This document shows, one piece after another, positions 17,252 through 34,894 of a DNA stretch of 37,189 bases. Where the stretch lies: IMG/VR virus record IMGVR_UViG_3300008119_001212, positions 1 through 37,189 of that record; one strand, 5' to 3'. The number at the start of each line of letters is the position of its first letter. Position 1 is the stretch's first letter. This DNA is from a virus. A program made the position numbers and the translations under genes. Below the pieces are notes generated by a model. That model was not told the origin of the DNA, did not search any database, and saw nothing but the letters and a program-made list of their open reading frames with translations.

Positions 17252-18886
17252 TTACATCATCATTTGAGATGGATCGTATGCACCGTCTTCCTTCTTGTCT
17301 TCTGGCTTGTCTACGATAACACACTCGGTTAATAAAATAGTACCTGCGATACTGGATCCATTCAATAATGCATTGCGGGTTACTTTGGTTGGGTCAAGTA
17401 TGCCTGCTTCTTTCATGTCTACGATGGATTTTGTTTTGATGTTGTATCCGCTCCATTTCGCGTCTCCATCGCGTAATTGGCGCGATAAAATGATTGAATC
17501 AACTTGATCATATCCAGCGTTGGTTAAGATTTGCTCAAACGGTTTACCGCAAGATTTGTATACGATGTTTTGACCGTAAACGAAATCACTGCTTGCGTCC
17601 TCTGTGAATTTGATGTTTTCTCTAGCGTATAGCAATGCTGTACCACCACCAGGAACAATACCATCTTCCAAAGCACATTTAGTTGCATGCAATGCATCGT
17701 CTACACGGTCTTTCTTTTCTTTCATTTCGGTTTCAGTGTTTCCACCTACGTGCACTAAAGCAACACCACCAACGAATTTTGCCAAACGTTCCTGCAATTT
17801 TTCAGTTTCAAATGGAGTGGTTGATTTATCGATTTGTGCTTCCAATTCCTCAACACGTTTAGTGATTGTTTCCTCTGCACCTTGACCATCCACGATTGTG
17901 GTTTGTTCTTTGGTTACAGTGATTGTACGCGCTTTACCGAACCACTCGTCCTGGAATTTGTCCAATTTCATGCCCTTGTCTTTGTCGAATACGGTACCGC
18001 CAGTCAATACAGCGATGTCTTCCAAAATCAACTTTCTACGGTCACCAAAGTCAGGTGCTTTAACAGCTACTACTTTTAATGTACCACGCATTTTGTTTAC
18101 AATTAGTGTTGCTAGCGCTTCACCGTCAATATCCTCCGCGATGATAAGTAATGATTTTCCAGTGCGAGCTACACCATCTAAAATAGGTAGCAATTCTTTC
18201 ACTTGTGTGAATCTATGGTCAGCGATTAACACTAACGCGTCAGTTAATACAGCTGACATATTGTTGTTGTTGGTAACGAAATATGGTGACTTGTAGCCAC
18301 GGTCAAATTGCATACCTTCAACTACCTCTAAATATGTTTCGCCAGTGCGAGATTCCTCGATGTGTACGATACCTTCACGGCCTACTTTTTCCATTGCTCT
18401 AGCGATCAATTTTCCAGTTTCTGGATCATTGTTTGCAGAAATGGATGCGATTTGCTCCAACTGCTCTTCCGAAGTGATTTTTTCCGAGTTTTGTTTAAGC
18501 GATTCTACTACTTGTTTAACTGCAGCATCGATTCCACGTTTGATTTCAACTGCGTTTCCACCCTCGTTTAAACGTTGCAAACCTTGCTTAACGATTTCAC
18601 GAGCCAATAATGTTGATGTAGTTGTACCATCCCCAGCATTGTCTGCTGTTTTGATTGCTGCTTGTTTGATCATTTGCGCACCCAAGTTCTCGATTGGATC
18701 TTCCAATTCCGAAATGTGTTTCGCGATAGATACACCGTCTTTTGTTGATACAGCAACACCTTCACTGAAGTATACTGTGTTTCTACCTTGCGGGCCTAAA
18801 CTGGATACTACAGCGTCTGCTAATGTATCGATTCCGTTTGCTAATTTTTTACGTGCTTCAGCACCAAGTTTGATTTGTTTACTCAT
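17252..18886 (-). CDS. groL: Chaperonin GroEL (Hsp60)
   Basis: 544 residues, the normal length for bacterial GroEL. It starts KQIKLGAEARKKLANGIDTL, carries the ATP-binding GPQGRNT (31-37) and the catalytic-region GDGTTT (85-90), and has the equatorial GIVPGGGTAL near 408 and AGILDPTKVTRNAL near 490. The C-terminus is DPSQMMM rather than a long GGM tail. It forms the folding chamber that works with GroES. A complete phage-coded GroEL suggests a phage protein, such as the capsid, that the host chaperonin folds poorly. It lies 6 bases after groS. Confidence 0.97.
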   Translation of the reverse strand: MSKQIKLGAEARKKLANGIDTLADAVVSSLGPQGRNTVYFSEGVAVSTKDGVSIAKHISELEDPIENLGAQMIKQAAIKTADNAGDGTTTSTLLAREIVKQGLQRLNEGGNAVEIKRGIDAAVKQVVESLKQNSEKITSEEQLEQIASISANNDPETGKLIARAMEKVGREGIVHIEESRTGETYLEVVEGMQFDRGYKSPYFVTNNNNMSAVLTDALVLIADHRFTQVKELLPILDGVARTGKSLLIIAEDIDGEALATLIVNKMRGTLKVVAVKAPDFGDRRKLILEDIAVLTGGTVFDKDKGMKLDKFQDEWFGKARTITVTKEQTTIVDGQGAEETITKRVEELEAQIDKSTTPFETEKLQERLAKFVGGVALVHVGGNTETEMKEKKDRVDDALHATKCALEDGIVPGGGTALLYARENIKFTEDASSDFVYGQNIVYKSCGKPFEQILTNAGYDQVDSIILSRQLRDGDAKWSGYNIKTKSIVDMKEAGILDPTKVTRNALLNGSSIAGTILLTECVIVDKPEDKKEDGAYDPSQMMM

Positions 18887-33322: not shown

Positions 33323-33504
33323 GTTGTGCCGGTTATACAATGGTTGCTCGAGCAGTCCATTGCTTTCCCATGCAACGAGAAAGTCCAGTGAGCAGTTCTG
33401 ATGGTGTGACCACAGGATCTGGGCCTGTCAAATGGAATTGACAGGGGAGCAAAAGACACACCCTGGTACGCTGTTCATATGGGTAGCGTGGTGTGTACTG
33501 TCGA
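33323..33504 (-). ncRNA. Candidate structured RNA downstream of tRNA-Thr
   Basis: A 182-base stretch with no convincing ORF lies between tRNA-Thr and the terminator. It contains three separate hairpins: 33457-33462 with 33090-type partner 33490-33495 (CACACC/GGTGTG, with an inner 4-bp stem 33469-33472/33485-33488), a perfect 8-bp stem 33424-33431/33438-33445, and a 6-bp stem 33338-33343/33357-33362 with an inner palindrome. It would be co-transcribed with the tRNAs. I do not recognise it as tmRNA, hammerhead ribozyme or tRNA. Whether it is a functional RNA or a decayed tRNA tract is unknown. Confidence 0.4.
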
Positions 33505-33576
33505 GCCTCTGGCCGGTCACGATCCGACGACCTTTTGATTACAAATCAAATGCTCTACCAGCTGAGCTACAGAGGC
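33505..33576 (-). tRNA. tRNA-Thr (anticodon UGU)
   Basis: 72 bases with a 7-bp acceptor stem GCCTCTG/CAGAGGC, D arm AGCTCAGCTGGTAGAGC, anticodon stem TTTGA/TCAAA around TTTGTAA (anticodon TGT), and T stem GTCGG/CCGGC. The T loop is ATCGTGA instead of TTCRANY: the usual T54 and A58 are exchanged to A54 and T58. No encoded CCA. Reads ACA codons, useful for an AT-rich phage. Confidence 0.85.
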
Positions 33577-33670
33577 AATTTGGGTGGAATCAGACGCGTT
33601 CTGTCCACCGAGACCTCGTCGTTGTGGTTTATTACAACCCAGAGCGTACCGAGACACTATATATTTCAGC
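33577..33670 (-). other. Structured spacer between tRNA-Ser and tRNA-Thr
   Basis: 94 bases with a stem 33583-33588/33604-33609 (GGTGGA/TCCACC) extended by a 4-bp inner stem 33591-33594/33600-33603, and a second hairpin 33621-33625/33634-33638 (GTTGT/ACAAC). It is not a canonical tRNA: no T-arm consensus and the loop lacks T33. Possibly processing signals or a decayed tRNA. Confidence 0.35.
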
Positions 33671-33754
33671 AGAGGAAGCAAGATTCGAACTCGCGATACA
33701 TTGCTGTATGGTGCATTTCAAGTGCACTGGTTTTAGCCACTCACCCATTCCTCT
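33671..33754 (-). tRNA. tRNA-Ser (anticodon UGA)
   Basis: 84 bases, class II tRNA. Acceptor AGAGGAA/TTCCTCT, anticodon stem GTGCA/TGCAC around CTTGAAA (anticodon TGA), a long variable arm with ATACA/TGTAT, and T arm GCGAG TTCGAAT CTTGC. Discriminator G as expected for serine. No encoded CCA. Reads UCA codons. Confidence 0.93.
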
Positions 33755-33765
33755 GTGTATAATTG

Positions 33766-33838
33766 TACTCCGTGCGGGACTTGAACCCGCGCTTCTGCCG
33801 TGAAAGGGCAGCGTGTTAACCGCTTCACTAACGGAGCA
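33766..33838 (-). tRNA. tRNA-Glu (anticodon UUC)
   Basis: 73 bases. Acceptor TGCTCCG/CGGAGTA with one wobble pair, anticodon stem CTGCC/GGCAG around CTTTCAC (anticodon TTC), and T arm GCGGG TTCAAGT CCCGC. No encoded CCA. First tRNA of the unit; reads GAA codons. Confidence 0.93.
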
Positions 33839-34051: not shown

Positions 34052-34894
34052 TTACAAGAGATCTAAATCTACTCCATGTGTATCGAACCACCATTCCACT
34101 GGCATATCTGGATGTTTAACCACCAATCGCTCATATCGCGCTTTTGCTTTCGCTTGACGTTCCACCTCTTGGGTGAAAAATGGATGCTCCATGGTTCCGC
34201 CCTGTACATACAGTTCACGTAGCAATTTACGCAAAATATACCCTTGCTTTTGTGGTCCAGGTTTGTAGCCCGAGTCGATGATGCGCTCGATTGTTTCTCG
34301 CAGCGTATCCAGCGCTGACTTTACTTGTTCGCCATTTGCCATGAGCTCAAGTCGCTCCATGCCGAATCCAACATCTATGAATTGATCTAACGTGTTAACT
34401 ATGTTGCCTATTTCCACTCCATTTACATAGAATTCGGTACAGTAGCCTCCCATCTCACCATCCGACCAGATACATTCTGTATCTGTGGTGATGTTTAGGT
34501 GTGGATACGCATCGTACATGTGTCTCCACTCGTTTAGTTTGTCGGGGTGAATGGTGATTGTGTCTACTTTGATCTCGAGTACACGGGTGATGAAGTCCAT
34601 CCAAAAGTCAACCGCTTGTTGCATGGTGAGTGCACCAAATGAAAACAAGCCAAGCATGTTGAAGTGTAGAAGGTGTGTACCGTCTCCGATTTCCTCAATG
34701 TCCTGTAAACGTATACATGATTGTATGTTTGCTACAGTTGTGTTGTCCGGGTTTTTGAATTTGTGCTTGAATTGTTGCATACCCGCTGGGCAAAACAATG
34801 TAGTATCATCGTATGGGTTTACTTTGTTGTCGTGCTGGAATGGGATGGAATGCGATTCGCAGTATTGTTGGTACAGTGTGCGGATGTCTTTCAT
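34052..34894 (-). CDS. Stand-alone alanyl-tRNA-synthetase-like catalytic core
   Basis: 280 residues; bacterial AlaRS has about 875. The class II core is visible: DDTTLFCPAGMQQFKHKF, IQSCIRLQDIEEIGDGTHLL (motif 2 region, with Arg), FNMLGLFSFG, CTEFYVNGVEIGNIVNT, and IDVGFGMERL (motif 3; the family usually has VDTGMGLER). KQGYILRKLLREL matches the AlaRS GYVLRR segment. The editing domain and C-Ala domain are missing. It could aminoacylate a tRNA, or another acceptor, with alanine. It lies beside three phage tRNAs, none of them tRNA-Ala. The core call is firm; the activity is open. Confidence 0.82.
   Translation of the reverse strand: MKDIRTLYQQYCESHSIPFQHDNKVNPYDDTTLFCPAGMQQFKHKFKNPDNTTVANIQSCIRLQDIEEIGDGTHLLHFNMLGLFSFGALTMQQAVDFWMDFITRVLEIKVDTITIHPDKLNEWRHMYDAYPHLNITTDTECIWSDGEMGGYCTEFYVNGVEIGNIVNTLDQFIDVGFGMERLELMANGEQVKSALDTLRETIERIIDSGYKPGPQKQGYILRKLLRELYVQGGTMEHPFFTQEVERQAKAKARYERLVVKHPDMPVEWWFDTHGVDLDLL

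Follow-up and report, generated by a model that had tools for sequence, protein, structure and literature searches.

The window, the whole stretch of 37,189 nucleotides that was analysed, carries on its minus strand (34052..34894) an intact open reading frame with an ATG start and no internal stop. The ORF, its PF01411 match, a structural model and hhalign indicate that the product, a 280-aa protein referred to here as mini-AlaRS, consists of a catalytic domain and a compressed tRNA-recognition domain. Three neighbouring tRNA genes were located by tRNA search on the same strand: tRNA-Glu(TTC) at 33765..33837, tRNA-Ser(TGA) at 33669..33754 and tRNA-Thr(TGT) at 33503..33576. A previous reading made from the sequence alone (hereafter the sequence-only reading) had suggested that the enzyme might act on a tRNA of this cluster. 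Such charging is unsupported because all three tRNAs, as read from their sequences, lack G3:U70. The same window also encodes a phage GroEL (phrog_5725, 17252-18886) and a Sir2-family protein (PF02146, 11344-12024).

Fold, active site and domain content

PF01411 (tRNA-synt_2c) was the sole Pfam domain in the 280-aa ORF (E 1.1e-21; 77.4 bits, cut-off 30.3). When the protein was searched against the PDB with phmmer, every match was an AlaRS, the best being 1riq/3htz (E 7e-12). PHROGs had no dedicated family for mini-AlaRS, and its best match there was phrog_28604, of unknown function (E 3.1e-7). An AlphaFold (AF2) model built from 28 family members reached a pLDDT of 90.7 and a pTM of 0.84, and the top twelve matches in a structural comparison of this model were all AlaRS (Z 24.1-22.7). 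The best of them was 9jc7_A (Z 24.1, 276 residues aligned, rmsd 3.7), and E. coli AlaRS (3hxu) aligned over 278 residues spanning its positions 1-411 (Z 23.9, rmsd 3.7). Archaeal AlaRS came next in the ranking (Z 19-20), followed by GlyRS-alpha as the best non-AlaRS fold (Z 15.0), which covered only model residues 1-191 or 1-227. Among viral proteins in BFVD, the best structural matches were giant-virus AlaRS from Terrestrivirus (A0A3G4ZSP6) and Yasminevirus (A0A5K0U818), with 464 and 513 aa and 18-21% identity over the structural alignment. By sequence and modelled fold, the 280-aa protein is an AlaRS of about a third of the normal length.

Profile alignment by hhalign of the mini family (26 rows) with four full-length AlaRS (Salmonella, Rhizobium, Caulobacteraceae and Acinetobacter) was colinear (E 7.6e-26). 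The stretch from R62 to F86 (34637..34711, minus strand), which we take to be class II motif 2, has a loop four residues shorter than that of full-length AlaRS, and motif 3 was recognized as D174-V-G-F-G-M-E-R181 (34352..34375, minus strand). Loss of ATP- or alanine-binding residues, named in the sequence-only reading as an observation that would speak against an AlaRS, was looked for in the alignment. The pocket was found to be kept, with R62, W143, N164, D174, G176, G178 and R181 invariant in 26/26 rows, as is E161. R62 and R181 align with the motif 2 and motif 3 Arg, and W143 and N164 with pocket residues; D174 aligns with the Asp of DTGMG in full-length AlaRS, a position that we take to be that of the alanine-binding Asp. 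On sequence and model together, the protein has a class II AlaRS fold in which both motif Arg and the alanine-pocket residues are all present.

Residues 188-280 (34055..34333, minus strand) were assigned by structural alignment and hhalign to a compressed tRNA-recognition module. Positions 303 and 400, in Salmonella numbering, are the first Asn of PSNENRGY and the Asp of YDTYG; the window protein has P214 at E. coli N303 and D271 at E. coli D400. In other words, the Asp of the pair that reads G3:U70 is present and the Asn is replaced by Pro. Over the 26 rows, the N303 position is N in 14, P in 7, H in 4 and G in 1, and the D400 position is D in 20, E in 3, S in 2 and N in 1; T272 is kept in 26/26 rows and G274 in 25/26. 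The Pro at the G3:U70-reading Asn counts against aminoacylation, as do the shortened motif-2 loop and the much reduced tRNA-recognition domain; several inserts are also gone. It should be noted that the term 'AlaRS core' in the sequence-only reading was right about the enzyme, as PF01411 and the model indicate, and too narrow about its extent: since the alignment to E. coli AlaRS 1-411 runs over the whole length and includes the tRNA-recognition domain, the protein is, on sequence and model, a compact aminoacylation unit with a shortened tRNA-recognition domain and more than a catalytic core. By its modelled domain content it is a mini-AlaRS, spanning E. coli 1-411 with catalytic and tRNA-recognition domains and nothing else. 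It has the fold, active site and element order of bacterial AlaRS (E. coli 3hxu, A. aeolicus 1riq) along 1-411, but lacks editing and C-Ala and has ~130 residues fewer within the shared part.

Neither PF07973 (editing) nor PF02272 (DHHA1/C-Ala) was found in any of 23 records (the window record and 22 others, out of 56 mini-AlaRS records then known; most of the 23 are fragments), and the same search was positive in 14/14 control genomes. With PF01411 above its cut-off, the earlier description of a truncated AlaRS without editing or C-Ala domains is upheld; the canonical four-domain architecture is, as judged from sequence, absent. These counts also bear on the idea that the protein forms one half of a split AlaRS, with a second gene supplying the rest, as in Nanoarchaeum equitans, whose alpha subunit likewise has a catalytic and a partial tRNA-recognition domain and, as described in the available part of PMC10036535, is similar in size and domain content. 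A gene completing a split AlaRS, which the sequence-only reading had named as evidence against its own view, was not found flanking or distant in the 23 records, nor was a beta subunit, and the D271 end of the tRNA-recognition domain is encoded in mini-AlaRS itself. A split enzyme is thus extremely unlikely.

The phage family and its counterparts

The search for homologues in other phages that had been proposed earlier revealed a large phage family, comprising fifty-five viral loci and one phage record of 634,780 bp (LR745206.1), which carries a 54% relative. Full-length relatives are mostly 260-290 aa. The family forms 22 clusters at 85% identity, and members outside the window's own cluster are 45-67% identical to the window protein. 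A later scan queried with one relative, L048, brought in further members at 43-55% identity to that query, the longest of their contigs measuring 607,744 bp. In one relative (L054 10001-10829, on the 279-kb contig G032), a frameshift and an internal stop interrupt the gene, as would be expected if the gene were a functionless, decaying fragment of a captured alaS. Such decay is nevertheless highly unlikely for the window gene, given its intact ORF and the similar length and invariant active site over 22 clusters.

Six mini-AlaRS loci were identified in bacterial genomes. A tree that included four full-length AlaRS placed the mini family on one side of a branch with support 100/100, and the cellular mini copies were scattered among the phage ones; because the outgroup comprised only four proteobacterial sequences, the origin of the family could not be placed from this tree. 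One bacterial locus (L063) lies on an Armatimonadetes MAG contig of 1,363,254 bp amid ORFs that appear phage-like by sequence (a collagen-like tail-type protein and a glycosyltransferase); a search of this MAG for a full-length alaS gave no match. Two candidates for a phage full-length AlaRS were rejected, one being bacterial sequence with purA, hisZ and thrA annotated around alaS (L317) and the other a Salmonella contig (L059). Three full-length AlaRS on unannotated contigs (L314, L315 and L316) were kept out of the phage AlaRS count.

A viral AlaRS reduced to its catalytic and tRNA-recognition domains has been described before. According to the available part of PMC10036535, the Tupanvirus mini-AlaRS (TuAlaRS, 461 aa) charges tRNA-Ala and a microhelix, rescues a yeast knock-out and is G3:U70-specific, yet lacks both the Asn and the Asp readers; there, Antika et al. 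consider it, to their knowledge, the only natural aminoacylation-domain-only synthetase that functions normally. Counting against the window enzyme, poor tRNA binding is reported for E. coli N461, a fragment with a similar layout (same source and scope), and the phage protein would therefore have to be something other than a plain truncation. As far as that text goes, TuAlaRS shares with the window protein the reduced domain content and Pro at the Asn position (P321 in TuAlaRS, P214 in the window), whereas the D400 position is Thr in TuAlaRS and Asp in the window, as in most family rows. The two differ further in length (461 against 280 aa) and in origin, TuAlaRS being derived from the AlaRS of an amoeba host and belonging to a eukaryotic giant virus rather than a phage. 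Huge phages have been reported to encode many tRNAs and up to 15 synthetases (Al-Shayeb 2020, PMC7162821); 'alanyl' is absent from the main text of that paper, the available part of which describes no reduced AlaRS. The available parts of PMC12619734 and PMC10746230 added nothing on AlaRS.

On sequence and model, the window gene encodes a phage mini-AlaRS that is most likely active on tRNA-Ala and is far smaller than that of Tupanvirus, and its family is the smallest natural AlaRS seen in the present analysis. A ~280-aa phage family of 22 clusters would offer much smaller natural minimal enzymes for asking what is the minimum for G3:U70 reading and charging, and how phages manage without proofreading.

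Alanine RNAs near the gene

No tRNA-Ala was found in the window, whose only tRNAs are the Thr-TGT, Ser-TGA and Glu-TTC genes described above. The sequence-only statement that no tRNA-Ala lies nearby is correct within the window and does not extend to the family: in two 95%-identical relatives, a tRNA-Ala(TGC) gene lies upstream of the synthetase gene, at 949 bp in L001 and 2430 bp in L002. The window extends no further than 2.3 kb upstream of the mini-AlaRS gene, and since both of these relatives have the upstream tRNA-Ala, its absence from the window is most likely an edge effect. In LR745206.1, a tRNA-Ala lies 1.2 kb from the start of the mini-AlaRS gene.

tRNAs were counted in 31 of the 56 mini-AlaRS records then known (for G015, G020 and G023, ARAGORN covered the stretches with tRNA matches, or nearly the whole contig). 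Any tRNA was found in 24/31, and 16 of these 24 had tRNA-Ala, nearly always with G3:U70, so that 'orphan' synthetase, as the gene had been called, does not apply. G3:U70 was present in 24/27 tRNA-Ala genes read and in none of the other parsed tRNA isotypes; a second tRNA-Ala of L018 was not parsable at 3:70. Each of the sister contigs L046, L050 and L056 contributes one of the three exceptions, an 88-nt tRNA whose anticodon was called AGC and which is probably a misassigned long-arm tRNA. In these calls (L046 8555-8642, L050 9338-9425, L056 9326-9413), the pair is U3:A70.

The 16 records with tRNA-Ala exceed the 9.7 of 24 predicted when one in every 20 tRNAs is taken to be Ala (P 0.0013), an enrichment that weakens over the 24 records if Ala is set to 8% of phage tRNAs instead of 5% (P 0.04). 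When one record per cluster with no more than 14 tRNAs was used, tRNA-Ala was found in 9/14 (P 0.0004 at 1 in 20 and 0.009 at 8%). The TGC tRNA-Ala pattern occurred in 11/24 mini-AlaRS records of at least 40 kb and 2/28 controls (Fisher P 0.0028), where the controls were picked by a tRNA-Asn pattern and belong to other lineages, and the mini-AlaRS records are not mutually independent. A search for mini-AlaRS in these 28 control contigs gave no match. In a second control set, 28 DNA-polymerase relatives including L001/L002, tRNAs occurred in only 2/26 gene-less contigs (G034 and G048), none of them Ala, most of these contigs being too short. Counting against a tRNA-Ala partner, no tRNA-Ala was seen in 8/24 tRNA-bearing records. 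Two of these negatives fit the partner model: the contig G007 ends ~130 bp past a tRNA-Asn, with its sister G008 running on to a tRNA-Ala 2.8 kb further, and G032, with 22 tRNA matches and no Ala among called tRNAs, is the contig with the broken mini-AlaRS. G030, with 27 tRNA matches and no Ala, does not fit.

A second alanine RNA was found in the closest relatives. L001 (11138-11316) and L002 (11144-11318) have a permuted tmRNA ~300 bp downstream of the gene (Rfam RF04321; 66.8 and 64.2 bits, cut-off 47), whose acceptor, GGGCGUG/CACGUCC-A-CCA, gives it G3:U70 and whose tag was read by ARAGORN as GNQNHMSIAA. The possibility that these calls are a tRNA-Glu/tRNA-Ser artefact was dropped, as RF04321 supports tmRNA. 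In the window, tRNA-Glu and tRNA-Ser are spaced by 10 bp and no tmRNA was found, so it is lost or absent there; L002 has >200 bp more, with the tmRNA between. The earlier suggestion that a different molecule is aminoacylated may thus hold additionally for both closest relatives, and the window itself offers no tmRNA for it. That charging tmRNA with alanine for the rescue of ribosomes on phage or host mRNA would be the main job of the enzyme, with tRNA-Ala secondary, is a very unlikely reading. The CCA-bearing G3:U70 tmRNA of both 95% relatives and further tmRNAs in G017, G028, G030 and G032 favour it, but RF04321 was above cut-off in 5/24 mini-AlaRS records of at least 40 kb and 3/28 controls (P 0.45), which is no enrichment, and the idea that mini-AlaRS travels with tmRNA was dropped. 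Viral contigs yielded 70 loci matching the permuted-tmRNA pattern (L332-L401), in 67/70 of which ARAGORN called a tmRNA with diverse tag peptides. Two of the 70 are on the L001/L002 contigs, and mini-AlaRS was not found on the DNA examined for the other 68, which argues further against a tmRNA-centred role.

We consider it very probable that mini-AlaRS is an aminoacylation-only AlaRS serving the alanine RNAs of its own phage family, chiefly tRNA-Ala(TGC). The enzyme would make Ala-AMP and pass alanine to RNAs with an acceptor-stem G3:U70, presumably with the acceptor stem as the only part bound. The family's tRNA-Ala(TGC), the gene for which lies just outside the window in the closest relatives, would be the main substrate, and host tRNA-Ala, plus phage tmRNA where present, could serve as further substrates. 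The supply of Ala-tRNA for phage translation would thereby be kept up during infection, and any proofreading would be left to enzymes of the host.

The bacterial copies bear on another possibility, that the protein activates alanine for a non-tRNA target (a peptide, a small molecule or a protein modification), like some synthetase paralogues. In Rhizobium leguminosarum and the Caulobacteraceae MAG, the gene lies away from tRNAs and a separate full-length alaS is present in the genome, which counts against a tRNA-directed role. Set against this are the tRNA-recognition fold, retained to the D400 position with T272, G274 and D271 largely or fully conserved (26/26, 25/26 and 20/26 rows), the linkage to tRNA-Ala and the leader described below, which puts an Ala codon at the control point. 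A non-tRNA target is therefore very unlikely.

A wrong-frame leader in relatives

The most surprising observation of the analysis is a leader upstream of the synthetase frame in 18/69 relatives, which is absent from the window gene with its plain ATG. It opens with a start codon and, after a small number of codons, continues with GAC or AAC, an alanine codon (GCN) and a stop, either at once or within 7 codons; the encoded form is M-x-x-L/R-D/N-Ala-stop, in some cases with 1 to 7 more codons before the stop. The synthetase frame is -1 relative to the leader. In 17/69 genes the region around the N-terminus has no in-frame ATG, GTG or TTG, and all of these but L052 (16/17) have the leader. Among the remaining 52 genes it occurs in two, L045, with no start other than a TTG inside the element, and L417, whose ATG is more distant. 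Fragments (L057 and L058), a gene in two halves (L064/L065) and a partial gene (L464) were dropped from this count, and two further partial genes (L467 and L468) are outside it.

The leader alignment included 17 copies (L049 was left off as a duplicate of L048) from 15 lineages, no two of which are >70% identical (median pairwise identity 53%): L048, L045, L060, L061, L043, L044, L046, L009, L018, L034, L409, L417, L448, L460 and L461. Two of them, L060 (Rhizobium leguminosarum USDA 2370) and L061 (the Caulobacteraceae MAG), lie among bacterial genes. ACGC is invariant, and bases -1 and 0 read GG in 13 copies and AA in the other 4. Every copy therefore has GGA or AAA as its -1 codon, on which two-position re-pairing with Asp or Asn tRNA is possible. 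The alanine codon is GCA in 12 copies, GCC in 4 and GCT in 1. In the synthetase frame the invariant A and C fall on wobble positions, and in the leader frame on second codon positions; as these synthetase-frame wobble bases do not vary and the leader Ala wobble base does, the constraint appears to act on the leader. The slip codon is preceded by an ATG at a distance of exactly 12 bases in 13/17 copies, by a GTG at 3 bases in three (L018, L034 and L409) and by a start codon further upstream in L448. A GGAGG-type Shine-Dalgarno sequence precedes the leader start by 5-9 bases in 12/17; the five without it (L009, L046, L050, L056 and L448, from three lineages) have a strong downstream hairpin (z -3.75 to -4.06, from mononucleotide shuffles). 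By the same measure, hairpins are strong in L009, L046/L050/L056, L448 and L417 (z -2.9 to -4.1) and weak in many other members, and a downstream hairpin is therefore not a family feature. A common non-canonical start for the start-less relatives was rejected because the codon after CGC differs between members (ATT, AAT, ATA-like, CTA, CTG, TTG or AAC).

In these relatives, then, a start-codon frame overlaps a start-less main frame at a conserved -1 slip site. The arrangement suggests -1 frameshifting at a hungry alanine codon that would raise AlaRS under Ala-tRNA shortage, a form of autoregulation in which, given the Ala codon in the leaders, Ala-tRNA is the likely sensed product. When Ala-tRNA is short, the ribosome would stall at the leader Ala codon, and the P-site tRNA on GAC or AAC could slip one base back onto GGA or AAA and bring the ribosome into the synthetase frame. 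For the 15 lineages, the window's not among them, we somewhat favour the view that mini-AlaRS is made only upon such a stall. We take the leader to be comparable to that of RF2 (prfB), where a short start-codon frame stops ahead of a main frame reached through a shift and the product relieves the pause; the difference is that the shift in the leader, read from sequence only, would be -1 and at an alanine codon, as opposed to +1 and at a stop codon. If this interpretation is correct, mini-AlaRS in these lineages would be an aminoacyl-tRNA synthetase that controls its own level through -1 frameshifting at a hungry codon. It would bear on the open recoding question of starvation-specific trans-frame products: in the available part of their review, Atkins et al. 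state, for hungry-codon frameshifting giving trans-frame proteins with a starvation-specific function, that 'no examples are known' (Atkins et al., 2016; PMC5009743). Neither a phage mini-AlaRS nor a synthetase under such a frameshift appeared in the titles and abstract openings searched, a body of text with subscription journals and preprints largely outside it. In L001, the six bases directly before the mini-AlaRS ATG, in frame with it, are GACGCA, which might be what is left of the leader in the window's own lineage.
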